Assembly: GCA_007694945.1 (NCBI GenBank)
Contig: REER01000055.1
Span: 1 to 46,643, forward strand
Reading direction: 5' to 3'
Length of the DNA: 46,643 nucleotides
Origin: Paracoccaceae bacterium
GTDB lineage: Bacteria > Pseudomonadota > Alphaproteobacteria > Rhodobacterales > Rhodobacteraceae
Shown: piece after piece, positions 16,976-38,013 of the stretch
Layout of the letters: the number at the start of each line of letters is the position of its first letter
Position numbering within the stretch: position 1 is the stretch's first letter
The notes under the pieces: model-generated
What the model was told of the DNA's origin: nothing
The model's database searches: none
The model's input: the letters and a program-made list of their open reading frames with translations, nothing else
Position numbers and translations under genes: made by a program

Positions 16976-17007
16976 CCTACAAGACTTCATAACGGGAGGA
17001 AGACCAC

Positions 17008-17510
17008 ATTAAATCCAAACTGAAACCTGCCTTTCTTGCGAGTGCAAGCGCTTTAATCTCGACATCACTTGCTGCCGAAACCCTGTTCTGGCCCACTCAG
17101 GCGCGCCCCATCGAAGAAAACTCAGGCGATGCGCGAACAGGTGCTCGCAGGCTTTGACGGGGACGTGACATTCGAGCCCTCGGACGAAGGGCCGTGGCAG
17201 ACGCGGCTCGAGGCCGAGATGCAGGCCGGTTCGGGGCGGATCGGGGTCTTGGGCGCGCTCCATGGCAATTTCAGCCCGCCGGTCGATGGGCTGGCGGATC
17301 TGTCCGAGATTGACGTGAGCGCGGTCGCGCCGGGCTTTGTCGAGCTGGGGCGGCTCGAGACGGATGAGCAGAAATACATCCCCTGGATGCAGGCGAGTTT
17401 CGTGATGGCCGCGCATCGCGATGCGTTGGAATACCTGCCCGAGGGGGCGGATCTGATGGCGCTGAACTATGACGAGCAGATCGCATGGGGGGCCAATATC
17501 CACGAAGCGA
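17008..17510 (+). pseudogene. Sugar ABC transporter substrate-binding protein remnant
   Basis: A GGGAGGA ribosome site at 16994-17000 is followed by ATT instead of ATG at 17008. It then encodes KSKLKPAFLASASALISTSLAAETLF, a plausible signal peptide. The frame is lost in an AAAA run at 17117-17120; removing one A gives PIEETQAMREQVLAGFDGDVTFEP. The second frame continues ([35 protein letters not shown]) up to about 17510. There it runs directly into the middle of an ATPase gene. About two thirds of the protein is missing. Family: extracellular solute-binding protein type 1 (COG1653). It is clearly non-functional. Confidence 0.75.
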
Positions 17511-18357
17511 CCGGCGGGTGGATCACCTGCCCCCGCGCGAGCGCGGGATTGCCATGGTGTTCCAGAATTACGCTGTGTTCCCGCATCTCACGGTCTTCGA
17601 GAATATCGCCTTTGGCCTGCGCATGGCGAAGCCGCCGCAGGCCGAGGTCACGCGGCGGGTCACGCGCACTGCCGAGTTGATGCATATCTAACAGTTGCTC
17701 AAGCGCTACTCGGGCGAGCTTTCAGGCGGACAGCGCCAGCGGGTTGCTGTGGCGCGGGCGCTGGCGATGGAGCCGGACGTGATCCTGATGGATGAGCCGC
17801 TCTCGAACCTGGATGCGCTCTTGCGGCTGGAGATGCGGGCCGAGTTGAAGGGCGTGCTGGCAGAGTCCAAGACCACTACCAATTACGTCACCCATGATCA
17901 GGTCGAGACGAGGTCGCTCGCCGACCGTATCAGAGTGATGAACGGCGGTTATATCGTGCAGGCCGACCGGCCCACGCAGGTCTATCGCAACCCCGCCGCG
18001 CGGTTTGTGGGCAGCTTCATCGGCAACCCGCCGATGGATTTACTGCCCGCGAAGCGCAGCGAGAACGGGCGCTGGCATGTCGCCGGGCAGGATTTCGATG
18101 GCCCGGACACCGCCGCCGCCGAATTTGCCATCCGCCCATAGGACATACACCCGGCCGAGGCCGGGCTGGAGGCCGAGGTGCGCGTGGTCGAACCGCTAGG
18201 GCCCCATACGCTGATCACCGCGGAGGTGGCGGGCAAGCCCTTCCGCGCGGTGCTGGAAAGCGACCGTGCCATCGCGCCGGGTGAGGTCATCACCCTAGCC
18301 CCGATCCCCGACCGCATCCGCTGGTTCGATCCTGAAACTCAAAAGGCCATCGCATGA
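17511..18357 (+). pseudogene. UgpC/MalK-type ABC ATPase remnant
   Basis: The reading frame enters at [26 protein letters not shown], so Walker A and about 70 N-terminal residues are gone. The signature [15 protein letters not shown], Walker [14 protein letters not shown] and the H-loop YVTHDQVE remain. Two in-frame stops interrupt it (TAA 17689-17691 and TAG 18139-18141). The C-terminal TOBE region (VRVVEPLGPHTLITAEVAGKPF) runs to TGA 18355-18357. The fusion to the binding-protein remnant implies a deletion that removed the rest of that gene, the two permeases and the ATPase N-terminus. The final stop overlaps the next ATG. Confidence 0.8.
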
Positions 18358-19240
18358 GTGACGCGTTACATTCTGCTGCCATCGAGATCCTGAAGATCAA
18401 TGATCGCGGCAGTTATACTGTGCCCACCAAGGGGCTCTACCCCTTCCAGTGGAACTGGGATTCCTGCCTGACCGCGCTCGGCCAGCGCCATTTCCACCCG
18501 GGTCGCGCGCTGACCGAGATCAAAACGCTGTTCGCGCATCAATGGCCCTGCGGCATGGTCCCGCATATCATCTTTCACGCGCTCGATGAGGGCTATTTTT
18601 TTCCGGTCCCGATATCTGGGATTGCCGCCGCCCCATGCCCACCAGCGGCATCACGCAATCGCCGATGGCTGGATTTGCGCTGAAACGTCTGCTGGACAGC
18701 GCGCCGGACCTGCGCGCCAAGGCGCGGCCGTTGCTGGCGCAGATCACCGCTTGGCATCGCTGGTTTCACGCGACCCGTGATCCGCAGGGTACAGGGCTGG
18801 TCGCGATCATTCATCCGTGGGAATCCGGGCGCGACAATTCGGTGGATTGGGATAGGCCCTTCGAGCGCGTGCCGACCGAGGGCATCACCCCCTATACGCG
18901 GCGCGACGCGCAGCATGCCGACCCTGCCCGCCGCCCGACCAAAGAGCAATACGGCCGGTATATCTGGCTTGTGGAGCGTTTTCGGGACCTTGGCTGGCAG
19001 ACCGAGAAGTTGCACGACGCCTCACCCTTTCAGGTGATTGATCCCGGCTTCAATGCGATCCCGATCCGCTCTTGTCTGGACTTGGCCGATCTGGCGGATG
19101 CGCTTGTAGAGCCAGAACTGGCACAGGAAAGCCGCAACATGGCCGAAAGGGGGCTGGCGGCGCTCTCCAGCCTGTGGTCGGAGGGCCGTGGCCAGTATCT
19201 CTGCCTTGACCGTGTGACGGGGGAGGTAGTGGGAGGATAG
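18354..19240 (+). pseudogene. GH63-like glycosidase (mannosyl/glucosylglycerate hydrolase type), frameshifted and truncated
   Basis: ATG 18354 opens MSDALHSAAIEILKINDRG followed by YTVPTKGLYPFQWNWDSCLTALG and WPCGMVPHIIFH. This is the N-terminal part of the (alpha/alpha)6 catalytic domain of GH63-like hydrolases of compatible-solute glycosides. A run of seven T at 18596-18602 breaks the frame. In the next frame GPDIWDCRRPMPTSGITQSP and WESGRDNSVDWDRPFE continue the family pattern, then YIWLVERF...FQVIDPGFNAIPI up to TAG 19238-19240. The C-terminal part is absent. With the LacI, binding protein and ATPase remnants it records a lost osmolyte-glycoside utilisation operon. Confidence 0.75.
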
Positions 19241-19621
19241 GCGAAGCGTTCATCACCCCCGAGGCGTATCACCTGATCCGCAGTCCTTGCATTACGAAGA
19301 CGCGGCTCAGGAGCCAAACCCGTCGCAGCCCGTCATGCCATTTCGCGCGATTTCGCATCATTAAACTTCAGAAATCCAATATTTTAGCGCGGCTTGCCCT
19401 ACCCTGTCATTTCCATCGTGGCTGGGCTGCCAGACAAAAGATATGCGCACGGGCACCGAGAAGCTCCAGGCGTTACGCTTGCTAACGCCAGCCCGTCACC
19501 GCCACGGCTGCATTCGAGATTAAGGCCGCAGCAACTCCAGCGTCGCCTTGGCGCGCATCGATCTGGACTGACGCGCCACATCACCTTGACTCGGCTCTGA
19601 CGGTCGGCTCAAGCTTTGCAT
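19241..19621. other. Intergenic region between the decayed operon and rpoN
   Basis: About 380 bp. The first 50 bases probably still belong to the decayed glycosidase (GEAFITPEAYHLIRSP in one frame). The rest shows no supported gene. An inverted GCTTG/CAAGC-type match near 19478 is weak. The rpoN promoter must lie here but no clear -35/-10 pair was found. Confidence 0.35.
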
Positions 19622-20968
19622 ATGCAAGCGACCACGCGACAGCATCTGGAAATGCACCCGACGCGACGCCTTGCCATGACCGGGGCGTTACGTCAGGCCA
19701 TCGATTTTCTCAAGATCGACAATCTCGCCCTCAGCCGTCGACTCAGGACCATGGCGCAGACGAACCCCGCGCTTGTCCTGAACACGTTACCGCCACCAGC
19801 CCCCAATGATCCCGTGCCTGCCCAGCCTGCAACGGCGCCACCTGCTGGAACCGACCTGACGCAGACGCGCCTCGCGGCACCTGATGCGAGCCTGCGTGCG
19901 CATGTGGCGACCGAGATCGGACTTGCCTTTCGCAGCACCGAGGAAACCCGTATCGCCAGCATCATTGCGGAAGCGCTGGAGCCAACCGGCTGGCTGGGCG
20001 AGTCACTTGGTGTATTGGCGGCGCGTGCAGAATGCTCCCTTACCGAAGCCGAGCGTATTCTGGCGCGGCTGCAACAGATCGAACCCGCCGGGATTTTCGC
20101 GCGCGATCTGGCCGAATGCCTCCGGCTTCAGGCGCACGAGCGCGGGATACTCAGCCCGGCCATGGATATGCTGCTGGCCCATCTCGACCTGATCGCACGT
20201 GGCAAGATCGACACTCTGGCAGAGCTTTGCGCCACAAGCTCAACTGAGATTCTTGCGTTGATCAGCAGGATCCGCAGCCTCGACCCGAAGCCCGGGCTTG
20301 TCTTTGCCCCCGACGACGCGCCGATCCGCCCGCCAGACGTGATCATCGAACGCACCGGAGAGAATGGCTGGCGGATCGAACTGAACAAGTCTACCGCCCC
20401 AGAGATCACCCTGCGCACGGGTACTGAAGGCATTGGCAGCGAGGCCGCATTCGAGGCCGCGCGCGATGAGGCGCGCTGGATTATGCGCGCGGTATCACGG
20501 CGCAATGCCACTGTGCTGAAAGTGGTTGGCGCAGTAATCGCGCTGCAATCGGAGTATCTGGAGAAGGGTGTCGCGGGGCTGCGACCATTGACCCGCGCAC
20601 AGGCCGCAGACAAGGCAGGCTTGCATGAAACCACTGTCGGACGAGTGGCCAATGCGATCCTCGTGCAGACGCCTAAAGGCACTGTGCCGCTCGCGCGGTT
20701 CTTCAGCGCTGCTCTGAAAGGCGCTGGAGATGCCGAGGAGGTGTCTGCAGAACGTGTCCGCCTGCGCCTGCGTGAACTGATCGAAGCCGAAAATCCTGAG
20801 GCGCCTCTCAACGACGCGGCGCTGGCAGAAAACCTCGGCACCGAGGGCATCCAGGTTGCCCGGCGCACAATCGCCAAATATCGCGACGCCATGGGCCTTG
20901 CATCGTCGCGCGCCCGCCGCGTCAGATACCGGACAACCCGACAGATGCAGCGCGCAGACAATGAGTGA
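19622..20968 (+). CDS. rpoN: RNA polymerase sigma-54 factor (paralog)
   Basis: 448 residues from ATG 19622. Region I is recognisable (HPTRRLAMTGALRQAIDFLKIDNLALSRRL). Region II is short and Pro/Ala-rich. The core-binding domain (IIAEALEPTGWLGESL, RLQQIEPAGIFARDLAECLRLQ) is followed by the DNA-binding HTH (HETTVGRVANAILVQTPKGTVPL) and the RpoN box ARRTIAKYRDAMGLASSRARR. Sigma-54 opens -24/-12 promoters only with an AAA+ activator. Such a promoter lies 130 bp downstream and a second at 29034, and an activator is encoded at 27898. It is somewhat shorter than most RpoN proteins. Location away from usual housekeeping neighbours suggests a second, dedicated copy. Confidence 0.92.
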   Translation: MQATTRQHLEMHPTRRLAMTGALRQAIDFLKIDNLALSRRLRTMAQTNPALVLNTLPPPAPNDPVPAQPATAPPAGTDLTQTRLAAPDASLRAHVATEIGLAFRSTEETRIASIIAEALEPTGWLGESLGVLAARAECSLTEAERILARLQQIEPAGIFARDLAECLRLQAHERGILSPAMDMLLAHLDLIARGKIDTLAELCATSSTEILALISRIRSLDPKPGLVFAPDDAPIRPPDVIIERTGENGWRIELNKSTAPEITLRTGTEGIGSEAAFEAARDEARWIMRAVSRRNATVLKVVGAVIALQSEYLEKGVAGLRPLTRAQAADKAGLHETTVGRVANAILVQTPKGTVPLARFFSAALKGAGDAEEVSAERVRLRLRELIEAENPEAPLNDAALAENLGTEGIQVARRTIAKYRDAMGLASSRARRVRYRTTRQMQRADNE

Positions 20969-20981
20969 AAATCCACGCCGC

Positions 20982-20996
20982 CGCGTGTAACACGCG
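20982..20996. promoter_or_regulatory. Candidate activator site (UAS), palindrome CGCGTGTAACACGCG
   Basis: A perfect 15-bp dyad 14 bp after the rpoN stop, with its centre 121 bp upstream of the -12 element of the sigma-54 promoter at 21096. That is a normal distance for an enhancer site of a sigma-54 activator. A related dyad (GCGTG-N3-CAC) occurs ahead of the second sigma-54 promoter. Confidence 0.55.
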
Positions 20997-21095
20997 CAAT
21001 GCGGCAATATCTCGATGGTTTCGAATTACCGGCGCTCTATCGACAAAGTTCTGTTTTTGTTTGTGAATTTTTCTTCGACACCCGCGCCGAATTTT

Positions 21096-21111
21096 TGGCA
21101 TGAATGCTGCA
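21096..21111 (+). promoter_or_regulatory. Sigma-54 (-24/-12) promoter of the peptide-transport operon
   Basis: TGGCATGAATGCTGCA matches TGGCACG-N4-TTGCA with the essential GG and GC in exact spacing; only two non-essential positions differ. Transcription should start near 21122, giving a leader of about 77 nt before ATG 21199. Confidence 0.8.
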
Positions 21112-21121
21112 AGAGATTGGT

Positions 21122-21142
21122 GCAGGTGTTCCACGCACCTGC
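21122..21142 (+). other. 5'-leader hairpin of the transporter mRNA
   Basis: GCAGGTG-TTCCACG-CACCTGC forms a perfect 7-bp stem beginning at the predicted transcription start. It may protect the 5' end of the transcript. Role inferred. Confidence 0.4.
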
Positions 21143-21198
21143 CGTTCAACCCGGTCGGCCACTATGGTCGGCAGGAGCAACAGGGAGACCTCGGAAAT

Positions 21199-22734
21199 AT
21201 GAAAGTCATACACCGAACTATTGTCGCTTCGGCCATTGCACTCTGTATGGCCCCGGCCGTCCAGGCACAGGAGCTGGTTGTCGGTTTTACCCGCGATGCA
21301 GACACGCTGGACCCGGCCAACCATCGGAACCGTGAGACGGAAACGATCATCCGCAACATCTATGACGGCATCCTGACCCGCGCTTCGGATATGCAGATTC
21401 ACCCCGAAATCGCGGAGAGCTACACGCAAGTCTCGCCGACCGTCTATGATTTCACCATCCGCTCGGGCATCACCTTCCATGACGGCTCCAGCCTGACCGT
21501 GGAAGATGTGAAATTCACGCTCGACCGGGTGATCCTCGAAGGCGGGATGGGCGATGGTCAGACCAGCCCGCGCGGCAGTCTGCTGGGGCCTGTCGAGTCG
21601 GTCGAGATTGTCGATGACAGCACCATTCGCATAACACTGAGCGAGCCGTGGCCTCTGCTGCCCGCGATGCTGCCGCATCAGCAGATCGTCTCGCAAGCTC
21701 ATGTCGAGGAAGTTGGCTCGGCTGGGATGGCCACGCAGGCGATGGGCGCGGGCCCCTTCCGTCTGGCGGACTGGCGACGTGGCGACTCGGTCATTCTCGA
21801 AAGATTTGACGACTATTACGGTGGCGCCACTGGCATTCCCGAAGCTGGCCCTGCCTGTGTCGAGCGTGTGATCTTCCAGGTCATCCCGGAATCGGCCTCG
21901 CGCGTGGCCGCGCTGCTCTCGGGCGATGTGCATATCATCAACGAGTTGCCGCCGCATTCAATGAATCAGGTCGAGAACAGCCCCAATGCGCAGGTCATGA
22001 CCGTCAATGGCACGCGCAGCTTCTTCCTTGCGATGAACAATGAAGGCGACATCTTCGATGATGTCCGTGTGCGTCAGGCCGTGGCCCATGCGATTGACCG
22101 TGATCTCATCATCGACCGAATCCTCGGCGGCACGGCGACCAAGATCGACGGCATCATGAGCCCCGATGCCTTCGGCAAGAACCCCGATCTGCCCGAGTAT
22201 GAATTCAACCCGGAACGGTCGCGCGAGCTTCTGGCCGAGGCGGGCTACCCAGACGGAATCTCGGTCACGCTCGACACCGAGGGTGCGCTGCGCGACACGG
22301 CCGAGGCGATTGCCTCGCTCATGACCAATGCCGGGATCACGACACGGGTGCAAGTGGGCGAAGGCACGCTTCTGACCCAGAAATGGCGCACACAGGGCGG
22401 CGAGAAGGAGGGCGACATGTATCTGACCTCCTGGGGCAACTCGACGCTCGATCCGTTCGACATCTTCGTGCCGACGCACCGTACCAATGATCGCGGCAAT
22501 TCGGCCGGCTATTCCAACCCCGAACTCGATGCGCTTCTCGACGAGGCCGGGGCCGAGCTGGACCGCGAGCGCCGTGGGGAACTCTACCAGCAGGCAGAAG
22601 CCCTCGTGAATGCCGAAGTGCCCTATGTCTATCTCTGGGTGCCACAGGATATCTACGGCGTCTCGACCCGGCTGAGCAACTGGTCGCCCAGCCCTGACAG
22701 CCGCATCAATCTGCATCGGGCCTGCCTCGACTGA
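21199..22734 (+). CDS. Peptide/opine-type ABC transporter substrate-binding protein (SBP_bac_5)
   Basis: 511 residues. A signal peptide (MKVIHRTIVASAIALCMAPAVQAQ) precedes a family-5 binding protein: LVVGFTRDADTLDPANHRNRETETIIRNIYDGIL, then the conserved ITFHDGSSLTVEDVKFTLDRV, and later VRQAVAHAIDRDLII. This family binds di- and oligopeptides, and also opines, nickel chelates and other small ligands. It is the first gene of the operon behind a sigma-54 promoter, followed by two permeases and two ATPases. A strong hairpin follows the stop, as is common after binding-protein genes that need higher expression. Ligand unknown. Confidence 0.88.
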   Translation: MKVIHRTIVASAIALCMAPAVQAQELVVGFTRDADTLDPANHRNRETETIIRNIYDGILTRASDMQIHPEIAESYTQVSPTVYDFTIRSGITFHDGSSLTVEDVKFTLDRVILEGGMGDGQTSPRGSLLGPVESVEIVDDSTIRITLSEPWPLLPAMLPHQQIVSQAHVEEVGSAGMATQAMGAGPFRLADWRRGDSVILERFDDYYGGATGIPEAGPACVERVIFQVIPESASRVAALLSGDVHIINELPPHSMNQVENSPNAQVMTVNGTRSFFLAMNNEGDIFDDVRVRQAVAHAIDRDLIIDRILGGTATKIDGIMSPDAFGKNPDLPEYEFNPERSRELLAEAGYPDGISVTLDTEGALRDTAEAIASLMTNAGITTRVQVGEGTLLTQKWRTQGGEKEGDMYLTSWGNSTLDPFDIFVPTHRTNDRGNSAGYSNPELDALLDEAGAELDRERRGELYQQAEALVNAEVPYVYLWVPQDIYGVSTRLSNWSPSPDSRINLHRACLD

Positions 22735-22745
22735 CCCGATATCAT

Positions 22746-22775
22746 CGCCGCGGGGCAAGAGATTGCCCTGCGGCG
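22746..22775 (+). other. Intercistronic stem-loop after the binding-protein gene
   Basis: CGCCGC-G-GGGCAA-GAGA-TTGCCC-T-GCGGCG gives a 12-pair stem with one G/T position and a GAGA loop, without a T tract. This is typical of mRNA-stabilising hairpins that raise binding-protein levels relative to the downstream permeases. Confidence 0.5.
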
Positions 22776-22873
22776 CGCATTGCCGCACTGTGCACCTTCG
22801 CTGTAGACCGGGATCTGTCAAAGACAGGCGCGGTCGCGCGTCGCCGCTTGCTCTTGCCCCCCCGGAGACCGGC

Positions 22874-23887
22874 ATGACCTTTACCAGATTTCTCGAACGC
22901 CTCCTGCAATTGATCCCAGTGCTGCTGGGGGTGAGCGTGATCGTCTTTGTGATGATGGCTCTGACCCCGGGCGACCCTGTCCAGATCATGATCGGCGACC
23001 AGATCGTGACACCCGAGCAGGAAGCCCAGATGCGCCGCGATCTCGGCCTCGACAGGCCGGTGGTTGAGCGTTTCTTTGTCTTTCTGGGCAATGCCTTGCA
23101 ATTCGACTTCGGTCAGAGCTTCTACCATCGCCGCCCGGTTGCCGAGGTAATCCTCGAGCGCCTGCCTGCAACCATCGAACTCACTGTCGTCGCCATGCTG
23201 ATCGCGCTGTTCACGGCGATCCCGCTGGGCGTGTTGGCCGCTGTGCGCAAGAATTCGATTTTCGACCGGATCGCGACAGTCGGCGGGCTCCTCGGCGTTT
23301 CGCTGCCGGGCTTCTGGTTCGGCATCCTGCTGTTGATGCTCTTTGCAGTGCATCTCAACCTCTTGCCGGTGGCCGGCCGGATCAATTATGGCATCAGCCA
23401 GGGCATAACCCCCTATACGCATTTCCTGCTGATCGACACGCTGCTCAATGGCCGGTTTGACGCCTTCCGCAACGCGCTCGCCCATATCATCCTGCCCGCC
23501 ATCACCCTGGGCCTGCCGATGACGGCGATCCTGATGCGGGTGACGCGCACGGCCATGCTCGAAGTGCTACGCGCAGATTATGTGACCTTCGCGCAGGCCA
23601 AGGGTCTGAGCCGGCAGCGCATCCTCTGGCGCCATGCGCTCAAGAACGCGCTGATCCCGACCGTATCGGTTGCCGCCATTGAAACCGGCAGCCTGCTGGG
23701 CGGGAACATGATCATCGAGACGGTCTTCGGTTGGCCCGGTCTGGGGCGGCTCGTGGTCGAGAGCATCTTCGTGCGCAACTACCCGCTCGTGCAGGCCGCG
23801 GTGCTGCTCTACGCGGTCATCTATGTGATGCTGAATTTCTTCGCCGATATTCTCTACACAATTCTCAACCCACGGGTGAAGCTGTGA
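22874..23887 (+). CDS. ABC transporter permease, DppB type
   Basis: 337 residues with six or so membrane helices. The DppB/OppB pattern is clear: LIPVLLGVSVIVFVMMALTPGDP at the N-terminus, FGQSFYHRRPVAEVILERLPATIEL in the first loop and the EAA-type loop YVTFAQAKGLSRQRILWRHALKNALIP. ATG 22874 has a GGAGA ribosome site, whereas the longer upstream frame crosses the intercistronic hairpin. It overlaps the next gene by 4 bases (GTGA), so the two permeases are translationally coupled. Confidence 0.92.
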   Translation: MTFTRFLERLLQLIPVLLGVSVIVFVMMALTPGDPVQIMIGDQIVTPEQEAQMRRDLGLDRPVVERFFVFLGNALQFDFGQSFYHRRPVAEVILERLPATIELTVVAMLIALFTAIPLGVLAAVRKNSIFDRIATVGGLLGVSLPGFWFGILLLMLFAVHLNLLPVAGRINYGISQGITPYTHFLLIDTLLNGRFDAFRNALAHIILPAITLGLPMTAILMRVTRTAMLEVLRADYVTFAQAKGLSRQRILWRHALKNALIPTVSVAAIETGSLLGGNMIIETVFGWPGLGRLVVESIFVRNYPLVQAAVLLYAVIYVMLNFFADILYTILNPRVKL

Positions 23888-24777
23888 GCGTCAGCGAACA
23901 ATCCGCACCAGTCGCTGCAGAGTCCCTATTCCGGCGCAACATGGCGGCCTTTGTCGAGAACCGCCTTGCTTTCGGGTCGGCGATCGTGGTGGTGCTCTTC
24001 GTGCTCATGGCGATCTTTGCACCATGGATCGCGCCGAATGATCCCTATGCCACAAACCTATTCTTCCGGCTGCAACCCCCTGTCTGGATGGAGGGCGGCG
24101 AGTGGGCCTATCCGCTCGGGGCCGATGCGCTGGGCCGCTGTATCCTGTCTCGCATCATCTATGGCGCTCGGATCTCGATCTTCATCGGTGCGGCAGTGAT
24201 CCTTGTTGCCACCACCATCGGCATTCTTGCCGGGCTCGCTGCGGGCTATCTGCGCGGCTGGGTTGATGTGGTGATCTCGCGGCTGGTCGATATCCTGCTG
24301 GGCTTTCCCTATCTGATCTTCGCCATCGGCCTGATGGCCATGATGGGGCCGGGGCTGGGGAACATCATCCTCGCGCTGGCCTACAAGGAGTGGGTCATCC
24401 CCTGCCGAGTGGTGCGCGGCGAAACGCTGGTCACGCGCGAGTTGGAATATGTCGAAGCCGCCCGCGCGCTCGGGGCCTCGGGGCGCCATATCATGCTGCG
24501 CGAGATCCTGCCCAATATCCTGTCGCCGGTGATCGTGGTCGCCACGATCCGCATGGCGCATGTGATCATTCTCGAAGCCTCGCTCTCGTTCCTTGGCCTT
24601 GGCGTGCAGCCGCCAACAGCCTCCTGGGGAGCGATGGTCGCTGATGGCCGCGCCTTCATTCTGGAAAGCTGGTGGGTTTCCACCTTCCCCGGCCTTGCGA
24701 TCCTGCTGCTGGTGCTGGCGATCAACGTGGCCAGCCAGGGCCTTCGCGACGCCTTTGACCCGAGGTTCACCGAATGA
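23884..24777 (+). CDS. ABC transporter permease, DppC type
   Basis: 297 residues starting at GTG 23884, which overlaps the dppB-type stop. It has an N-terminal OppC region (FRRNMAAFVENRLAFGSAIVVVLFVLMAIFAPWIAP) and the ADALGRCILSRIIYGARISIFIG segment characteristic of DppC. The EAA loop is EYVEAARALGASGRHIMLREILPNI. About six membrane helices. Its stop overlaps the next start (ATGA). Confidence 0.92.
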   Translation: MSVSEQSAPVAAESLFRRNMAAFVENRLAFGSAIVVVLFVLMAIFAPWIAPNDPYATNLFFRLQPPVWMEGGEWAYPLGADALGRCILSRIIYGARISIFIGAAVILVATTIGILAGLAAGYLRGWVDVVISRLVDILLGFPYLIFAIGLMAMMGPGLGNIILALAYKEWVIPCRVVRGETLVTRELEYVEAARALGASGRHIMLREILPNILSPVIVVATIRMAHVIILEASLSFLGLGVQPPTASWGAMVADGRAFILESWWVSTFPGLAILLLVLAINVASQGLRDAFDPRFTE

Positions 24778-25781
24778 GCGATGACATCCTTCTTGAAGTG
24801 CGCGGATTGCGCACAGTGTTCGACACCCGCTCGGGACAGGTCTGTGCCGTGGACGGCGTGGACGTGACCGTGACGCGGGGGGAATGCCTTGGTATTGTGG
24901 GCGAATCCGGCTCCGGAAAGTCGGTCACATTTGCCTCGGTAATGGGGCTGGTGCGCTCGCCGGGCCGGATCGAGGCGGGCGAGATCGTATTTGACGGGAC
25001 AGATCTGCGCAAGCTCTCGCCCCGGAAGATGCAGGCGCTGCGCGGGCGTGACATCGCGATGACGATGCAAGACGCGCTCACGGCCCTGAACCCGGCGCTT
25101 ACCGTGGGCGAACAGCTTGCCGAGATGCTCGAGGCCCATGACGATGATCTGCCGCGCCGCCGCGGTGCGCGGCGTGCGGCCATTCAGGCCCGCTCGGTCG
25201 AAATGTTGACACTGGTCGGCATCCCCTCGGCCGGGGATCGGCTGCGCCAGTATCCGCATGAATTCTCGGGCGGAATGCGACAGCGGATCATGATCGCCAT
25301 CGCGCTCGCCTCCAAGCCGCGCCTGCTGATCGCGGATGAACCTACCACGGCGCTGGATGTCACGATTCAGGCGCAGGTTCTGGAACTCATCTCGAAGCTG
25401 CGCGCAGAGCTTGGCATGAGCGTGGTGCTCATCACACATGATCTGGGCGTCGTGGCCGAGCATTGCGACCGCGTGATGGTCATGTATGCCGGTCAGGTGG
25501 TTGAGGAAGGCCCGACAGCACGGGTCATCCGCGACCCGCGCCATCCCTACACGCGCGGACTTCTGGCCTCGATCCCCCGCCCGGCTTTGCGCGGCCAGCC
25601 GATCCGCCCTATCGATGGGCAGGTGCCCGATCTTGTCGATCTGCCACCACAATGCCGCTTCCTTGATCGCTGCCCGGAGGCCGGCGAGGCGTGCCGCCAT
25701 CTGATCGACATGCATCCGGCAGGCCCTGCGCGCCGCGCGCGCTGCATCCGTATCGCCGTTCCAGAGACAGAAAAGGCCTGA
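24774..25781 (+). CDS. ABC transporter ATPase, DppD type
   Basis: 335 residues. Walker [10 protein letters not shown], signature [17 protein letters not shown] and Walker [19 protein letters not shown] are all present. The C-terminal oligopeptide-ATPase extension carries the Cys motif [14 protein letters not shown]. It pairs with the DppF-type ATPase encoded 3 bp downstream to form the asymmetric motor of a peptide-type importer. Confidence 0.93.
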
Positions 25782-25784
25782 GCC

Positions 25785-26800
<1,016 letters not shown>

Positions 26801-26804
<4 letters not shown>

Positions 26805-27901
26805 GGTTGGCGCGGGCATCCCTTCTGCAGGCGCCTGTCCTGTCCGGCGACGCCCATACGCGCGGGCGGCTGCAAGCCGAGGGCGCCGATGCGGCGCTAC
26901 TCGCAAAGGTCCGGAACGCGACAATTGCGCGGGTCGAGGCCCTGCACCGACAGGGCAAGCTCACTGCGGATCAGCGCGCCTATCTCGCCGCGCAATATCA
27001 CTTCCACCGCGAGCATGATCCCGATGGGATGGCCGAGTTGAAAGGGATTGCCAAAGGCTTCGGGCTGCCGGAGCATGCGCTTTTTGAGCATCTGCATCTT
27101 GGCACCTTGCGCGACCTCGCCAGCGGGGCGATTCTGACCGGCGATGGGTGCAGCGCCTTTGCGGTTGGCGACAGTCCCGATGGTCCCTTTGTCGCCAAGA
27201 ACCGCGACTTCAGCGGCACGCATCTGGGCGTTCAGCGGCTCTTCTGGCATCAGGGCCCGGATATCCACACAGGCGGGATGCTCTGCCTTGGCAGCCTTGG
27301 CAGCCCCGGCGCCTATTCGAGCGGCATGAATGCAGCCGGCCTTGCACTGGTCGATACCCAGATCGGCGCGCGCCATCACGCTGTTGGCTGGCTGCGCTAT
27401 CTGGCCATGACGCGGATCATCGCAAGCTGCAAGACTGTGGCCGAAGCGCTCGACTGGCTGCGCGTGCGTCCGCATGCGGGCGGCGGTGCGCTCATCCTAG
27501 CGGATGCCACGGGTGCCACAGCCGCTATTGAGTTGGGCGCGCGGGGGCCTGTGATCCGGAAGGGCGCGCGAAGCTGGAATACCAACCATTTCCGCGCACC
27601 CGAACTTGCGCAAGAGACACTTCTGCAAGACAGCACTGTCATCGACAACAATTCCGCCCTGCGCCTTGATGCCTTGACCGCCCGACTCTCTGGTCCTCCA
27701 CCTGATCTTGCCGAAGCTGCGGGGATTCTCTCGCTGCACCGCGATGGGCCTGAGACCGGACCAATCTGCCAGCACCCGAGCACGGCAGATGATACGAGCA
27801 CCCTGTCCTCGGTCATCTACGCGATTGCGCAAAAGCGCGTGTACTTCCATGATTCAAACCCTTGCGCGGGAAACTGGCATCGGTTTGACTTGCCGCAATG
27901 A
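26801..27901 (+). CDS. C45-family autoproteolytic acyltransferase/hydrolase (AAT-like, Ntn fold)
   Basis: 366 residues, no signal peptide, GGAGG ribosome site. The family pattern is visible: an N-terminal helical pro-part (LKGIAKGFGLPEHALFEHLHL), then the autocleavage motif ILTGDGCSAFAV, in which the Cys (about residue 117) becomes the N-terminal nucleophile. PFVAKNRDF, GMNAAGLALVDTQIG and the late SWNTNHF follow. Relatives include acyl-CoA:6-aminopenicillanate acyltransferase and various N-acyl amino acid amidases. Encoded in the peptide-importer operon, it probably deacylates or cleaves an imported amide in the cytoplasm. Substrate unknown. The stop overlaps the start of the activator gene. 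Confidence 0.85.
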
Positions 27902-28902
27902 CCGGGCGGCAAGATGACGGAGCGCAGATGGCCGATTATGGCGGCGAGCTTGTTGGCACAGACCCCAAGATTGAGACCCTGCGCCAGCTTGCCCGCCGTG
28001 TCGCCCGCTCTGCTGCGCGCACGGTCCTGATCTACGGCGAGACCGGCACCGGCAAGGGGCTGCTCGCGCGCATGATCCACCAGAATTCACGCCGGGCTGA
28101 CAAGCCTTTTCTGGATATCAACTGCGCGGCCATCCCTGCCGGGCTGATGGAATCCGAATTCTTCGGCCATGAGAAAGGCGCCTTCACCGGCGCGAGCGAA
28201 CGCAAGATCGGGCTGGTGGAGGCCGCCAATCATGGCAGCGTCTTTCTTGACGAGATCCGCGAGATGGATCCGCACCTGCAAGCCAAGCTGCTCAGCCTGC
28301 TCGACACCCACCAATTCCGGCGCGTGGGGGCCGTCAAGGCAACGCATGTCGATCTGCGATTCATCGCCGCGACCAACAAGGTTCTGCTCTCTGAGGTCAT
28401 GAGCGGGAATTTCCGCGAAGACCTCTACTACCGACTTCAGGTGGTCGCCCTCAACATCCCTGCACTGCGCGAACGCGGCGATGACGTCCTGGTCCTCGCC
28501 GAACACTTCATACAGCGCTTCAACATGGCTTTCGGCCGGGAAATCGGTGGGCTCGCGCCGGAAACCGCGGAGATCATGCGCAAATATCCGTGGCCGGGCA
28601 ATGTGCGCGAACTGGAGAACCTGCTTGAGCGGATCTTCATCCTAGAGGATGACGACATGGTGCTGCCGCGCCATCTGCCCGACCGGATTCTGCGCACTGT
28701 GCGCTCGGGCGCAAAAGTGATCCCGCCGGCAGGTGAGACCCCTGTCGCGGATCAGGGATTTCACGCCGCGACGGCCGATTTCCAGCGCGAATTGGTGCAG
28801 CGCGCGCTCTTGCAGAGCGGCGGCAACCAGCAGGCGGCCGCAGGCCTCTTGAAGCTGACACGCCACGCCCTGCGCCACCAGATGCAGAAACTGGGGCTCT
28901 GA
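27898..28902 (+). CDS. Sigma-54-dependent activator without a sensor domain
   Basis: 334 residues from ATG 27898 (coupled ATGA start; ATG 27928 with a GGAGCGC site is an alternative). Only about 20 residues precede the AAA+ domain, so no PAS, GAF or receiver domain is present. Walker A GETGTGKG, the sigma-54 contact loop GAFTGA (in HEKGAFTGASERKIG), Walker B GSVFLDEI, the sensor-1 region and R-fingers (FREDLYYRL) are intact. The C-terminus carries a Fis-type HTH (NQQAAAGLLKLTRHALRHQMQKLGL). It is therefore a competent enhancer-binding protein, PspF-like in layout, and must be controlled by an outside partner or by its own level. It should activate both -24/-12 promoters in this island. Confidence 0.92.
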   Translation: MTGRQDDGAQMADYGGELVGTDPKIETLRQLARRVARSAARTVLIYGETGTGKGLLARMIHQNSRRADKPFLDINCAAIPAGLMESEFFGHEKGAFTGASERKIGLVEAANHGSVFLDEIREMDPHLQAKLLSLLDTHQFRRVGAVKATHVDLRFIAATNKVLLSEVMSGNFREDLYYRLQVVALNIPALRERGDDVLVLAEHFIQRFNMAFGREIGGLAPETAEIMRKYPWPGNVRELENLLERIFILEDDDMVLPRHLPDRILRTVRSGAKVIPPAGETPVADQGFHAATADFQRELVQRALLQSGGNQQAAAGLLKLTRHALRHQMQKLGL

Positions 28903-28925
28903 ACCACCTTGTGTTTCAACGCCTT

Positions 28926-28938
28926 GCGTGCAACACCC
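28926..28938. promoter_or_regulatory. Second candidate activator site, GCGTGCAACACCC
   Basis: Differs at two positions from GCGTGTAACACGC at 20983-20995 and sits 116 bp upstream of the -12 element of the sigma-54 promoter at 29034, nearly the same distance as the first site. It overlaps a possible terminator stem. Confidence 0.45.
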
Positions 28939-28955
28939 GCGAGTGCGGGACTTTT
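28936..28955 (+). terminator. Possible terminator of the activator gene
   Basis: CCCGC-GAGT-GCGGG followed by ACTTTT, about 35 bp after the activator stop. The stem has only 5 pairs, so it is weak. Confidence 0.4.
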
Positions 28956-29033
28956 GCGCATAATGCATCGGGAAGTAGTGGATACAATTCCAGTATTTTT
29001 AGCAATTACAGTAACATATGAGAAAATACTCTC

Positions 29034-29049
29034 TGGCACAAAAGCTGCA
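29034..29049 (+). promoter_or_regulatory. Sigma-54 (-24/-12) promoter of the DUF1446/DUF4387 operon
   Basis: TGGCACAAAAGCTGCA has the complete TGGCAC -24 element and a CTGCA -12 element with exact GG/GC spacing. It lies 34 bp upstream of ATG 29083. The surrounding stretch is markedly AT-rich compared with its neighbours. Confidence 0.85.
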
Positions 29050-29082
29050 TTTGTTAAGGCAGGAATTAGCAACGAGGCAGAC

Positions 29083-30456
29083 ATGTCATCCATGAAGGTC
29101 ATCAGCCCAAACGGGCATCTGGGCTTCGCGCCCCTCAAGAACGGCAGTTTCCAGATCGGTGTTGCAGCCGGGCCGGATATCATTGCCGCAGATTCGGGCA
29201 GCGATGACATTGGCCCCGGACCTCTGGGCGCCGATACCTGCGCCAGCCCCCGCGCCTGGCAGGAGCACGATCTGGAATTGATGCTGCTCGCTGCACGCGA
29301 GAAAAATGTACCGATGATCATCGGCTCCGCCGGCGATACCGGCAGCAACAGCCGCGTGGACATGTATGTGCAGATCATTCGTGATCTGGCGAGCAAGCAC
29401 AAGCTCGCGCCCTTCCGTTTGGGCTGGTTCTATTCCGAGGTGGACCCCGAGCGCGTGCGCGCGAGCATCCGCGACGGCGAACCCGTCACCGGGCTGGATG
29501 CCCGTGCCGAGCTGACCGAGGAAGAGCTTGACGCAACCGACCGCATCGTCGCGATGGCAGGCGTGCATCCTTACCTCAAGCTGCTGGAGGACGGTTGCGA
29601 TGTCATCATCGGCGGGCGCTCTTCAGACAGTGCCGTTTTCGCGGCCCCAGCCCTGCATCGCGGTTACCCCGAAGCGCAGGCTTATTATCTGGGCAAGGTG
29701 CTGGAATGCGCGAGCTTCTGCGCCGAACCTTATGGCGCGAAGGAAACCGTCTTGGGTGAAATCACCCCTGACTGGGTTGATGTGACCGCCATGGCGCCCG
29801 AACAACGCTGCACCATTGCCTCGGTTGCAGGACATGCGATGTACGAACGTTCCAACCCGTTCCACGAATTTGTCGCGGGTGGCATGCTCGACATGACCGA
29901 TTGCCATTATGACCAGATCGCTGACAAGACCACACGCGTAACGGGCATGAAATTCGTCCCTGCGCAGGAGGTTCGGGTCAAGCTCGAAGGCTCGGGCAAG
30001 ATCGGCGAGCGGTTCGTGGGCATGGCCGGGATCCGTGATCCCTATACTATCGCAAATGTCGATGCGGTCATCGAATGGGCGCGCCAGCAAACCCGCGAAC
30101 GCTTTGGCGAGAGCGGCTGGGAGCTGCATTACAATGTCTTCGGCCGTAACGGAGTCATGGGCGATATGGAGCCGCTCAAGGACAAGCCCGGCCATGAGTT
30201 GTGTGTAGTGGTGCAGGGCGTGGCGCCCACTGTCGAGATGGCCGAAGAGGTCGCGATGACCGGAACACGGCAGCTCTTTTACGCGCGCCTACCTGATGTG
30301 AAAGGAACTGCCGGTGGGGTGTCATTCATCCTTGACGAAGTGATGCAGGCGAGCCCCGCCTATCGCTGGACGCTGAATCACACCATGGCCGTGCGTGACC
30401 CGCTCGAGCTGTTCCCGACCCATAGCGAAATCGTCACCATAGGAGCCGCGGCATGA
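29083..30456 (+). CDS. AtuA-like DUF1446 protein
   Basis: 457 residues from ATG 29083 (GAGG ribosome site, MSSMKVISPNGHLGF). The frame is open further upstream but there covers the promoter, so it is not coding. DUF1446 segments are evident: DIIAADSGSDDIGPGPLG, PMIIGSAGDTGSNSRVDM, GCDVIIGGRSSDSAVFAAPALHRG and AKETVLGEITPDWVDV. AtuA belongs to an acyclic terpene utilisation cluster, and the family is otherwise biochemically obscure. It overlaps the DUF4387 gene by 4 bases; the two families usually occur together, probably as one complex. It is the first gene behind the second sigma-54 promoter. Confidence 0.85.
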   Translation: MSSMKVISPNGHLGFAPLKNGSFQIGVAAGPDIIAADSGSDDIGPGPLGADTCASPRAWQEHDLELMLLAAREKNVPMIIGSAGDTGSNSRVDMYVQIIRDLASKHKLAPFRLGWFYSEVDPERVRASIRDGEPVTGLDARAELTEEELDATDRIVAMAGVHPYLKLLEDGCDVIIGGRSSDSAVFAAPALHRGYPEAQAYYLGKVLECASFCAEPYGAKETVLGEITPDWVDVTAMAPEQRCTIASVAGHAMYERSNPFHEFVAGGMLDMTDCHYDQIADKTTRVTGMKFVPAQEVRVKLEGSGKIGERFVGMAGIRDPYTIANVDAVIEWARQQTRERFGESGWELHYNVFGRNGVMGDMEPLKDKPGHELCVVVQGVAPTVEMAEEVAMTGTRQLFYARLPDVKGTAGGVSFILDEVMQASPAYRWTLNHTMAVRDPLELFPTHSEIVTIGAAA

Positions 30457-30785
30457 ACACGCCCACAACACTTGCGAGCCTTGCCAAGACCATCCGCAGC
30501 AAGAATGCCGGGACCGACAAGATCACCTTCGACATCATCTTCCGCGAACGCGAAACCTATGATCTGGTCCGGCGCTCGGGCGCGCTCACACGTGAAAGCG
30601 TGTGCAAGGTGCTCAATATCGATGCTGCGCGCCTGACCGATTTCGTCGAATATGACCCCGGTCTCGCGATCAAATTTACCATTCTGCGGCCGCATCCCTC
30701 GGGCAGTGCCGGCGATGGAGATATCTTCGGCGCCCAGCAATATGCGCCTTTCCTCGATCTCGAGGTCGATCTCTCAGCGGCCTGA
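30453..30785 (+). CDS. DUF4387 family protein
   Basis: 110 residues. The typical start LASLAKTIRSKNAGTDKITFDIIFRERETYDLVRRSG and the end FDxxxLRPxxSGSxGDGDIFGAQQYAPFLDLEV match DUF4387. This small domain is found either fused to or next to DUF1446 proteins. It has no signal peptide or membrane segment. It is translationally coupled to the DUF1446 gene (ATGA). Function unknown; a structural subunit is likely. Confidence 0.82.
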   Translation: MNTPTTLASLAKTIRSKNAGTDKITFDIIFRERETYDLVRRSGALTRESVCKVLNIDAARLTDFVEYDPGLAIKFTILRPHPSGSAGDGDIFGAQQYAPFLDLEVDLSAA

Positions 30786-30956: not shown

Positions 30957-31979
30957 TCAGTTTTCAGTGGAAAAACAATCTGGCGCCGGTGCAAGCGACA
31001 GGATAATCTTGGCTGAAGAGACAACGCCTGCATCCAGATCGGCGAAGGCCTTCGGGCCTCCGTCAAGTGGGCGCGTGCTGACCCAGCCAAGCTTGCCCAG
31101 ATGCCCTTTGTCGAGTGCATCGAGTGCTGCCGCAAAATCCGCGGGCGTATAGCAATAGCTGCCAGTGATGGTGATTTCCTGCAGCGTGATGCGGCGGATG
31201 TCATATCCTTCATGCCCGGGCAGAAGCCCGACGTGCACGATCACACCGCCGGGCCGGACCAGCCGCGAGGCGGCCTGACGCGTCGCTGCGGCGCCGACGG
31301 CGTCGATAATCAGGTCATAAGCACTCTCGCCCGGATCATTGGCACTCGGGTCGAACCCCGTGATCCCAGGCTCAGCCTCCAGCAGCGCGCGGCGTCCGGG
31401 GTGAGGCTCGGCGACGTCGATGATCTCGGCCCCCATATGCCGCGCGACCAGCGCCGCGCCCAGCCCAATGGCCCCGCCGCCCTGCACCAGCACGCGCGGG
31501 CGCGGCGCGCCCAGCCGCTCCAGTCCGATGCGCATTGCGTGCCATGACACCGCAACCGGCTCGCTCAGCGCGGCGTCGCGCAGCCGCATGCCCTCGGGCA
31601 CGGGCAGCAGGTTGCGCTCGGGGATAGTGACATATTCGGCGAAAGCACCGGGGCGCGGGGGCATCGAGATGATCGCGCGCGTGGGCGAAAGATGCGGTCG
31701 CCCTGCGAGGGCTACAGGGCAGTCCGGGTCCACCACCAGCGGGTTGATCGCCACGCGCTCGCCCTCGCGCGGGCCGGAGGCAACGAAACCGGCCGCCTCA
31801 TGGCCCAGCACGAGGGGCGGTGGGCGGCGGTCGTCATGTCCATGATAGGCGTGCATGTCGGACCCGCAAATGCCGACATCCGAGACGCGCACCAGAACCT
31901 CACCCGCTGCAGGCACTGGCACGGGTTGCTCGCGCAACACCATCTGATTGGGGCCAGTATAGACAAGCGCGCGCATCAT
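30957..31979 (-). CDS. Zinc-type (MDR) alcohol dehydrogenase lacking the structural-zinc cysteines
   Basis: 340 residues (ATGATG at 31979/31976). The catalytic zinc ligands are kept: Cys in VGICGSDMHAYHG and His-Glu in VLGHEAAGFV. The NAD-binding motif VLVQGGGAIGLGAALVA is present. Where relatives carry four lobe cysteines, this protein reads VVDPDCPVALAGRPHLSPTR, with only one Cys left. It presumably oxidises a polyol or similar alcohol. It is the last gene of the LacI-controlled operon and follows the SDR gene by 6 bp. In sulfopropanediol clusters an MDR and an SDR enzyme accompany HpsN, which fits this layout but does not prove the substrate. Confidence 0.85.
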   Translation of the reverse strand: MMRALVYTGPNQMVLREQPVPVPAAGEVLVRVSDVGICGSDMHAYHGHDDRRPPPLVLGHEAAGFVASGPREGERVAINPLVVDPDCPVALAGRPHLSPTRAIISMPPRPGAFAEYVTIPERNLLPVPEGMRLRDAALSEPVAVSWHAMRIGLERLGAPRPRVLVQGGGAIGLGAALVARHMGAEIIDVAEPHPGRRALLEAEPGITGFDPSANDPGESAYDLIIDAVGAAATRQAASRLVRPGGVIVHVGLLPGHEGYDIRRITLQEITITGSYCYTPADFAAALDALDKGHLGKLGWVSTRPLDGGPKAFADLDAGVVSSAKIILSLAPAPDCFSTEN

Positions 31980-31985
31980 CCCCCC

Positions 31986-32762
31986 TTATTTCGCCGTGAA
32001 GCCGCCATCGACATGCAATGTCTGGCCAGTGATATAGGCAGAGGCATCCGAACACAGAAAGATCGTGGCCCCATGGAGATCCTCTAGCGCCCCGTTGCGC
32101 CCTATGGCCGTGCGCGCGGCATTGGCGGCGGCCAGTTCGGCATCGGCGAAAACGGGCGCGGTGAGCGGTGTCGGGAAGAAGCCGGGCGCGATGGCGTTGC
32201 AGGTGATGCCCTGCCCCGAGAATTCCTGCGCCATCGCGCGGGTCAGTTGCACGATGCCGCCCTTGGCCGCACCATAGGGCGCGGAATTGGGGAAGGCGCG
32301 GCTCGATTGCAGCGAGGCGAGGTTCAGAACCCGCCCCCAGCCGCGCGCCGCCATGCCGGGTGCCAGATGCTGCAGCAGAAGGAATGGCGCGCGCAAATGG
32401 AGCGCCATATGCAGATCAAAGGCTTCGGGCGTCACGTCCAGATAGGGCTGGCGCAGGTTCACGCCTGCGGCATTGACGAGGATATCCACCTCGCCAACCG
32501 CGTCGGCCAAGGCCCGCAAGGCCTCCGGGTCGGTCAGATCGGTCGGGTGCAATGTGGCGTCGAGCCCCTCACTGGCCAGCGCAGTGCGCGCCTCTTGCAG
32601 GCGCGCAATGTCGCGCGCGGCCAGATGCAGGCGCGCGCCCTGCAGACCCAAGGCCCGCGCCATGGCTAGCCCGATGCCCGAATTGCCGCCCGTCACAAGC
32701 GCGCGGCGACCGCTCAGATCGAAGAGGGCATCAAGCCTTGGCACACCGCACCTTTTCGTCAT
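31986..32762 (-). CDS. Short-chain dehydrogenase/reductase
   Basis: 258 residues from ATG 32762; a GTG at 32744 in the same frame is an alternative. Classical SDR motifs are present: nucleotide loop [11 protein letters not shown], the NAAG motif (ILVNAAGVN), the catalytic Ser in [22 protein letters not shown] with the YxxxK pair, and a C-terminal [15 protein letters not shown](P)-dependent oxidation or reduction of a hydroxy group. Its 5' end overlaps the end of the DegT-type gene by about 30 bases. Position with the HisD-like and MDR enzymes suggests conversion of one stereoisomer of the imported substrate. Confidence 0.88.
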
Positions 32763-33942
32763 CGGTCGCCTCGGCAGCCTGGATCAGCGCATCGGCGATC
32801 AACTCGCAGTCCTGCGCGCTCAGCTCCAGCGGCAGGCGTATGTCGCAGAGGGTGGTCTGGATCGCGCAGGCGCGGGGCACCTCGGTTGCCTGGGCGCCAG
32901 GCCATTGACCAGGGTTGGAGCTATAGCCCTCTGGTGAGGCGCTGCCGAACCATTTGACCCAGACGCCCCGCGCGCGGGCCGCGTCAATGAATGAAGCCAT
33001 TGCGGTTTTGTCTCGCGCGGGCAAACGAAATTGCAGCGAAGACTGCGCATAGGCTTCTGCCTGTGGTCTGTGTGGCAGCACGAAGCCGGTGGCAGCCTGC
33101 AAGCGTTGCGCGATCCGATCGTGGCTCGCGTTCCAATCGGCCACGCGCTTGGGCAGGAGCGGCAGTTGCGGCAGCGCCAGCGCGGCCACAAGCGCCGACA
33201 TCCGCAGCGAATAATTGCCGCAGCGGTCAAACCAGTCGACCATGACCTGCTCGGGAGGGCATGTACCGTTCTGCCGATAGAGCCGATAGCTGCCCGCGTG
33301 CAGGATCGCCTGTGCGGCGACATCATCATCGTCGGTGATCAGTATGCCGCCTTCGCCGGTATTCACATGCTTGCCCGACTGAAAGCTGAAGCACCCGGCA
33401 AGCCCGAAATTTCCCGCCTGCCATCCGGCCCAAGTGGCGCCCAGCGTATGGGCACAATCCTCGATCAGGGTGATCCCCTCTTCCCGGCACAGCTCCGCCA
33501 GCGCACCGAGGTCGCAAAGATGCCCGCGCATATGCGACAGGAGCAGCACCCGCGCGCCCGAGGCGCGCGCCTTGGCGCGCAGATCATCAAAATCAATGAC
33601 CAGATCCTCGGTGATCTCGACCAGCACCGGGCGCGCCCCCACATGCTGCACCGCACCGGGAACGGGCCCAAGCGTGAAAGCGTTGAGCAGCACCTTGTCG
33701 CCCGGCACCACCCCTGCGGTCTTGAGCGCCAGAAACAGCGCCGATCCGCAGGAATTGAGCGCGACGGCATAGCGCCTGCCCATCATCCGCGCGAAGTCGC
33801 GTTCCAGCGCGGCTACGAGCCCACCATCGCCCCCAGATTCGGAGTAGCGATGCAGACGCCCGGTCTCTACCAGCGCCATGGCCATGGCGAGGGCCTTGGG
33901 CGGAATATCGGGCGGGCGGCCCAGATCGGGCGGGGAACGCAT
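32731..33942 (-). CDS. DegT/DnrJ/EryC1-type PLP-dependent aminotransferase
   Basis: 403 residues. Fold-type I PLP enzyme with [16 protein letters not shown] at the cofactor phosphate site, the Asp of [11 protein letters not shown], and the Schiff-base Lys in [16 protein letters not shown]. The enzymes usually aminate keto-sugars, or act on keto compounds bound as PLP or PMP. Such a gene in a small-molecule catabolic operon is unusual. It may move an amino group onto or off the imported compound. It lies 3 bp after the HisD-like gene. Confidence 0.85.
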
Positions 33943-33945
33943 GGC

Positions 33946-36371
<2,426 letters not shown>

Positions 36372-36404
36372 GGGTTGGTCCTCCTTGTTGTGGTTGGTCG
36401 TTTC

Positions 36405-37202: not shown

Positions 37203-37223
37203 GTTTGTTCCTCCCCCTCTGCC

Positions 37224-38009: not shown

Positions 38010-38013
38010 CGTA

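Follow-up and report, generated by a model that had tools for sequence, protein, structure and literature searches.

Our analysis of a 46,643-nt contig from a Paracoccaceae bacterium (REER01000055.1 of GCA_007694945.1; contig C117 of the 3.18-Mb assembly G000, and referred to in its full length as the window) revealed ten genes, all on the plus strand between positions 19622 and 30785, that very likely form a self-sufficient sigma-54 catabolic island with its own RpoN, activator, two promoters and enhancers. The island begins with rpoN (sigma-54; 19622..20968, an ATG start being favoured over TTG at 19616), followed by genes for a periplasmic substrate-binding protein (SBP) of family 5 (Dpp/Opp type; 21199..22734), two ABC permeases of the DppB/OppB (22868..23887) and DppC/OppC types (23881..24777), and two ABC ATPases of the DppD/OppD (24774..25781) and DppF/OppF types (25785..26804). 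These are followed by a C45 autoproteolytic N-terminal nucleophile (Ntn) acyltransferase/hydrolase (26807..27901), a sigma-54 activator or bacterial enhancer-binding protein (EBP; 27898..28902), a DUF1446/AtuA-family protein (about 29083..30456) and a DUF4387 protein (30453..30785). Two predicted -24/-12 promoters, also on the plus strand, lie ahead of the importer operon (P1, TGGCATGAATGCTGCA, 21096..21111) and ahead of the DUF1446 gene (P2, TGGCACAAAAGCTGCA, 29034..29049), and each is preceded by a predicted enhancer (20983..20997 and 28926..28940). Genes were assigned by domain matches, promoters by pattern and conservation, and the enhancers by conservation, with an exact consensus match at P1. 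All parts named in a first-pass annotation of the window were recovered at their places. It had also described two translational couplings: the activator start does overlap the C45 stop by 4 nt, and the C45 gene does adjoin that of the last ATPase but less tightly than claimed, as it starts 2 nt past the ATPase stop. Sequence comparison provided the gene order, the sites, the GAFTGA loop, the lack of another sigma-54 gene in the assembly, the single RpoN lineage and the purifying selection described below.

The complete ten-gene order was found at 15 loci beyond the window (L023, L054, L055, L059, L061, L065, L067, L069, L071, L077, L081 and L094-L097). DUF1446 at 70% identity or more occurred in 18 of 394 genomes of a family sample, with the next match at 52%, and rpoN was linked to it in 16 of these 18 (in G165 split over two contigs), the exceptions being G076 and G218. 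Out of 40 RpoN neighbourhoods 11 contained the island, one of these ending at a contig edge. On contig C98 of G032 two -24/-12 sites about 7.9 kb apart lie beside a partial rpoN, and the island is probably present in at least four of the 37 genomes of the genus (G000, G022, G013 and G032). A scan of named genomes yielded 80 loci, partly the same records as the G-labelled genomes, so that the two sets are not independent; in the DUF1446 comparison the nearest named records were metagenome-assembled genomes (MAGs) of Rhodobacteraceae (L140) and Roseinatronobacter (L141). The linkage between rpoN and the transporter, for which a synteny comparison across relatives had been proposed, is conserved across many genera.

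Sigma-54 transcribes only together with an ATP-using activator. The window RpoN exceeds the cut-offs of all three Sigma54 Pfam domains (PF00309, 29.6 bits; PF04963, 141.8; PF04552, 155.4) and of TIGR02395 (316.7 bits), and its activator-interacting, core-binding and DNA-binding domains are all present. The RpoN box, which we take to be ARRTVAKYR, reads ARRTIAKYR in the window, and RRT..KYR is found in 14 of 14 aligned rows. A Sigma54_DBD Pfam search of G000 returned the window rpoN as its single match, and the second copy that the first-pass annotation had wished to see looked for was not found. Matches to rpoN occurred in 11 of the 37 genus genomes, in seven of the 24 that are at least 90% complete and at most 5% contaminated, and in 130 of the 394 family genomes. 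The island gene is the sole Sigma54_DBD gene in 12 of 18 rpoN-island genomes (10 of 14 in one genome set and two of four, G150 and G314, in another, where G289 and G334 are the exceptions). No sigma-54 site was recognized ahead of rpoN itself in 18 scanned upstream regions: on our hand-made promoter score the best reached 12.4 (L071) and the window 12.2. Given these scores and their scattered positions, rpoN is probably read by another sigma factor.

The window EBP consists of an AAA+ Sigma54_activat domain with an intact GAFTGA loop, as first annotated, and a C-terminal Fis-type HTH; G[AS]FTGA was present in 12 of 12 aligned island EBPs. Many, though not all, EBPs have an N-terminal regulatory domain; no such sensor domain was detected in the window protein, in which only 17 residues precede the AAA+ match, nor in any of the 12 aligned proteins. 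The PF00158 search of G000 gave nine matches, namely two Clp-like proteins, five NtrC-like ones, of which one was hit twice, and a weak match on contig C5, which was left out of the activator reading. Only the window protein among the five NtrC-like proteins has GAFTGA; the other four, presumably NtrX-, NtrC- and DctD-like judging from their layout, are without it. We further examined 30 of the 109 activator-domain matches of ten additional genomes, one of which (L120) was unreadable. All ten island activators have GAFTGA or GSFTGA, and of the 19 other readable activators 13 are without the loop, GAFPGA stands in four, and the remaining two read GAFTGA (G110) and GSFTGA (G350). The GAFPGA proteins (L123, L124, L125 and L130) belong to island-bearing genomes and are possibly no longer sigma-54 dependent.

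Both -24/-12 sites were confirmed exactly, P1 at 21096, 103 nt ahead of the SBP start, and P2 at 29034, 49 nt ahead of the DUF1446 start. The strict pattern TGGCAY-N5-YTGCW matches three times in the window; the third match, at 38554, lies within a coding sequence (38014-38796), is not among the matches of the sister genome G022, and was taken as chance. Across rpoN islands a -24/-12 site was found before SBP in 18 of 18 cases (best score 12.7-14.9 of 14.9, 79-104 nt away) and before DUF1446 in 17 of 17 (13.1-14.9, 47-57 nt away). The off-site rate in island loci was 33 in 664,252 positions, or about 0.3% per 60-nt stretch, and control regions upstream of five other island genes gave 0/49, 2/52, 2/53, 0/55 and 0/80 (4/289 in total), so that the predicted sites before SBP and DUF1446 are more than chance. 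Named loci that include an EBP had a site before SBP in 46 of 47 cases (the miss is L216) and before DUF1446 in 67 of 70 (misses L213, L214 and L219); with no EBP in the locus the figures were 0/1 for SBP and 2/9 for DUF1446 (L172, and L209 with 12.5 at 108 nt). One named locus was too short for this count.

The two promoter classes also differ at positions -11 and -10. In 27 named rpoN-bearing loci A occupies -11 in 51 and T occupies -10 in 53 of 53 sites, giving GCAT at -12, as opposed to 19 and 29 of 52 sites in 35 loci without their own rpoN (Fisher 1.3e-11 and 4e-9, with sites related by descent). The two sites without A at -11 both belong to Aquamicrobium. Nine loci were excluded from the group without island rpoN, as their contig ends before the rpoN position or they have no EBP. 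The fuller pattern TGGCAYR-N5-TGCAT has exactly two matches in each of the genomes G110, G188 and G388, all inside the island, three in G150, five in G022 and one in G000; the reversed pattern gave 0, 3, 1, 0, 0 and 0 matches in G110, G188, G388, G150, G022 and G000.

A dyad search upstream of the -24 elements revealed the conserved palindrome GCGYG-N5-CRCGC, which is a predicted binding site of the activator. In the window it lies 113 nt upstream of -24 at P1, as an exact copy, and 108 nt upstream at P2. Within rpoN islands exact dyads occurred upstream of SBP in 27/28 regions and upstream of DUF1446 in 18/28; in loci without island rpoN the respective counts were 7/19 and 28/40 (the nine loci excluded above were kept here). 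Shuffled sequence gave about 1%, with shuffling in 20-nt blocks and a consensus derived from the same regions that were later counted. Common distances to -24 are about 64, 77, 87, 108 and 128 nt, and pairs are often about 20 nt, or two helical turns, apart.

The order SBP-B-C-D-F-C45-EBP-DUF1446-DUF4387 is also kept without rpoN in the locus, in Stappia, Neorhizobium, Ciceribacter, Microvirga, Chelatococcus, Caenispirillum, Saccharospirillum and others. Copies of rpoN were counted in 27 of the 80 named genomes. Where an EBP but no island rpoN was present, in most cases with operon and promoters retained, sigma-54 was encoded elsewhere in 21 of 21 genomes (one copy in 17, two in four), and these host proteins score 197-241 bits for the DNA-binding domain versus 128-188 bits for island copies. 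Aquamicrobium (L185), where the island is rearranged with the DUF pair first, and a Hoeflea MAG encode an island RpoN in addition to that of the host. In Paenochrobactrum (L155) a single rpoN was found, which adjoins the island divergently (at about 397) and whose product sits on a long branch within the host RpoNs. Marinobacter (L187), with one rpoN, has no EBP in the locus. Missing EBPs were judged within the examined loci. In G076, which has one rpoN elsewhere and an EBP with GAFTGA, one DUF1446 copy is preceded by a perfect -24/-12 and by two exact enhancers spaced 20 nt from each other. The single importer there is surrounded by two C45 genes and two DUF1446-DUF4387 pairs (L101 4241-16506), with sites at the first pair only.

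Four variant genomes without rpoN (G218, G050, G451 and G453) had no site before the SBP and DUF1446 genes examined. In G218 the genes stand in another order and the EBP loop reads GSFAGA; neither a -24/-12 site before SBP or DUF1446 nor an exact enhancer was found, with 173 nt covered upstream of the first gene (C45). G050 keeps the importer, C45 and the DUF pair and has neither an EBP nor such sites. Paenalcaligenes (L175) and Marinosulfonomonas (L218), likewise among the four, lack an EBP in the locus, and no site precedes their DUF1446 gene (1.3 kb upstream covered in L218). A few weaker -24/-12-like matches (12.9-13.4) elsewhere in the variant loci occur as the background predicts.

In a 67-row RpoN tree a branch (97/95) separated 28 island RpoNs plus four unlinked Rhodobacteraceae RpoNs from the rest, and 18 canonical host RpoNs fell into one group (100/100). 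The tree omits seven loci without a usable RpoN frame, one island (L141) and six others. The Aquamicrobium island RpoN forms a long branch, and the four unlinked proteins (L078, L079, L080 and L082) are nested in the island lineage and have perhaps been reused for other targets. Between 16 islands RpoN was on average 44% identical, EBP 72% and SBP 75%; the log-distance ratio of RpoN to EBP was 2.56 for islands versus 1.47 for the host RpoNs of 13 loci; and dN/dS against the sister species G022 was 0.25 for rpoN, 0.18 for C45 and 0.015-0.09 for the other island genes. Because of the low identity, the higher distance ratio and a dN/dS below 1, these comparisons indicate that the island sigma evolves faster yet under purifying selection.

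The importer shows the five-gene A-B-C-D-F layout and the expected Pfam domains of Dpp/Opp oligopeptide importers (SBP_bac_5, two BPD permeases and two ATPases with oligo_HPY). Unlike the Dpp/Opp references, the SBP falls under the cut-offs of all 11 NCBIfam models that it matched and each of the five proteins lies below those of the best NCBIfam models shown, so that a peptide substrate is no more than a possibility. The C45 protein reaches 142 bits against NF040521 (cut-off 85), and its residues D113 G114 C115 S116 (DGCS), which include the predicted nucleophile Cys115, are invariant in 12 of 12 aligned proteins. Its predicted structure (pLDDT 84.5) best matches the fold of isopenicillin N acyltransferase (2x1c_A, TM-score 0.74, E 1.3e-16), followed by acid ceramidase, NAAA and penicillin V acylase; it shares with these Ntn enzymes the fold and the invariant Cys after DG but only about 17% identity with the 2x1c type. 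The amide- or peptide-like compound proposed in the first-pass annotation fits this fold, which gives the metabolic part of that proposal partial support. DUF1446 and DUF4387 match chains A and B of PDB 9erq (E 1.3e-74 and 5.1e-21), the citramalate lyase subunits CmlA and CmlB (also PDB 9evf), a likeness by homology only. The annotation of this pair as a new catabolic step has to be softened accordingly, as the pair corresponds to a named and solved enzyme; no paper on CmlA/CmlB was found in open-licence PMC. A DUF1446 protein of unknown function has been noted downstream of methylaspartate ammonia-lyase (PMC4682846). Downstream of the pair lie genes for an Amidohydro_3 protein and a DAO-family oxidoreductase in L218 and for a GLUCM-like protein in L188, and the neighbours of the Achromobacter and plasmid loci, being housekeeping or unrelated transport genes, gave no clue to the substrate. 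We consider the chances about even that the steps run from import through amide cleavage to C-C cleavage.

From these comparisons we infer the actual transcription of the island, the exclusivity of the sigma/activator pair, an amide-then-lyase pathway and an inducing signal. The island RpoN, in hosts often without any other sigma-54, would direct RNA polymerase to P1, driving importer, C45 and EBP, and to P2, driving DUF1446-DUF4387. The EBP would open both promoters from palindromic enhancers that lie upstream of -24 by typically about 108 nt and, in other islands, also by about 54-88 or 128 nt. As the EBP gene belongs to its own P1 operon, the circuit is likely a self-reinforcing loop, which might be started by another sigma, by a partner protein or by a ligand of the AAA+ domain. 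The Dpp-type importer might then supply the cytoplasm with an amide- or peptide-linked compound, whose amide bond the C45 enzyme might break there; the acid set free might undergo C-C cleavage by the CmlAB-like pair. On balance we favour the view of a portable island whose own sigma-54 keeps this type of control running even where a lineage has lost it, with an RpoN that serves essentially two promoters genome-wide, has co-diverged with their -12 element (mostly GCAT), is near-orthogonal and can be replaced by a host RpoN where there is one.

The claim of a private sigma and activator for one catabolic regulon is supported by the sole copies, the conserved linkage, the sites and the RpoN-less relatives, and has to be weighed against other explanations. 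The window rpoN might be an ordinary housekeeping sigma-54 that stands by chance beside a sigma-54-dependent operon; no other copy was found in the genome, and Paenochrobactrum illustrates that such adjacency can happen. The gene does not look like a housekeeping copy, however: 26 of 37 genus genomes (17 of the 24 high-quality ones) have no RpoN match, the four other NtrC-like proteins of G000 are without GAFTGA, island RpoNs group apart from the canonical RpoNs of other hosts, and the linkage is kept in many genera. We regard chance adjacency as very unlikely. Decay of a once-private module, with RpoN and perhaps C45 under relaxed selection and the operon read from another promoter, would agree with the raised dN/dS of rpoN and C45, with the low RpoN identity between islands and with the sigma-54 control already decayed in the relative G218; it appears highly improbable given a dN/dS below 1, an open frame with intact RpoN box and domains, and conserved promoters and enhancers. 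The catabolic role itself is less firm. The C45 family includes acyltransferases, one of which is the nearest fold, and DUF1446/DUF4387 occur without a nearby C45 or importer match in L187, L192 and L209, so C45 could be an acyltransferase or a quencher of N-acyl signals and the DUF pair unrelated to C-C lysis. The linkage to a solute importer, the match to a named citramalate lyase and the genes downstream of the pair in L218, which suggest a pairing with amide hydrolysis, make us think this other role rather doubtful.

Several observations weigh against a strictly private circuit. G000 is 95.4% complete, and a second rpoN could be missing from it. An additional rpoN is present in six of the 18 rpoN-island genomes and in four of six more named genomes (L143, L147, L150, L156, L157 and L182, with the island rpoN of L150 lying beyond the contig), the other two having a single one; in the cultured carriers Maritimibacter fusiformis and Thetidibacter halocola only the island rpoN was detected. 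G110 and G350, two of the ten partly examined genomes, carry a second GAFTGA or GSFTGA activator. As some island genomes thus have further copies of either partner, the privacy of the pair is not absolute everywhere. The EBP offers no sensor domain to account for an inducing signal. The -11/-10 counts are phylogenetically non-independent, and P1 of the window, which was not among the 53 sites, reads GCAA and breaks the rule; the GCAT enrichment is only suggestive of promoters not interchangeable with those of other RpoNs. A similar -24/-12 pattern matches 0-10 times in genus genomes without an RpoN match, and we do not use such counts alone as proof of a regulon. The P2 enhancer of the window has one mismatch. 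The RpoN of Aquamicrobium is very divergent and its sites have T at -11, with no enhancer found there at 0-1 mismatch. Achromobacter and Bordetella keep only DUF1446-DUF4387 plus an EBP on the opposite strand. Haematobacter (L172) has a P2-like site (14.4) at its DUF1446-DUF4387 (10001) with no EBP or rpoN detected 10 kb upstream and 4 kb downstream; the single rpoN found in that genome sits elsewhere, with no island genes beside it.

Activators of the PspF type have no N-terminal regulatory domain. The island EBP resembles them in consisting of AAA+ plus Fis-type HTH only, and differs in that no PspA-like partner is found among the island genes and PspF models match far below their cut-offs. 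Specialised RpoN-activator pairs are already known from Cereibacter (Rhodobacter) sphaeroides, of the same bacterial order, and the island is a new variant of them. According to PMC11999139, four RpoN paralogues occur in that genome, the specialised sets are RpoN1-NifA, RpoN2-FleQ and RpoN3-AprX-xrpA, AprX has a REC domain, and recognition at -11 contributes to RpoN1/RpoN2 specificity. The likeness lies in a sigma-54 copy that serves a gene subset with one cognate activator. Unlike in C. sphaeroides, here the regulators, their promoters and the catabolic genes form one collinear island, often with the sole sigma-54 found, and the EBP is without a sensor domain. What bears on a dedicated pair, as far as sequence alone can tell, is the linkage, the sole copies and the presence of just two sites in each of G110, G188 and G388. 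We found no account of the island in the open-licence PMC literature, subscription papers, including earlier Rhodobacter RpoN papers, being outside our scope, and the accessible parts of PMC12316311 and PMC4843759 (the latter on RpoH) contained nothing on it.

Sigma-54 is usually regarded as a global factor common to many activators. Our comparison suggests one that is devoted to about two promoters and moves together with its own regulon, and the loci appear to form a natural series in which the operon has its own sigma, uses the host sigma, or has lost sigma along with the activator or its loop. This series might be useful for studying sigma specialisation, promoter-sigma co-divergence and why lineages keep sigma-54. 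The island might also provide a compact, possibly orthogonal expression set, and the regulon a handle on the substrate of DUF1446/DUF4387 (CmlAB-like) enzymes.

The island does not stand out in composition, its GC content being 0.62 and that around it 0.62-0.63, and no tRNA genes were found in the window. Just upstream of rpoN (16226-19240) lie broken remnants of a sugar ABC operon, presumably a LacI-type regulator, fragments of an SBP and a UgpC-type ATPase, and glycosidase-like fragments; L023 also holds sequence matching the ATPase and glycosidase-like fragments. Downstream, on the minus strand (30957-38796), a cluster encodes an NMT1-type ABC importer, a histidinol-dehydrogenase-like protein, a DegT aminotransferase, an SDR and a zinc alcohol dehydrogenase, with a LacI regulator beside it at 38815.

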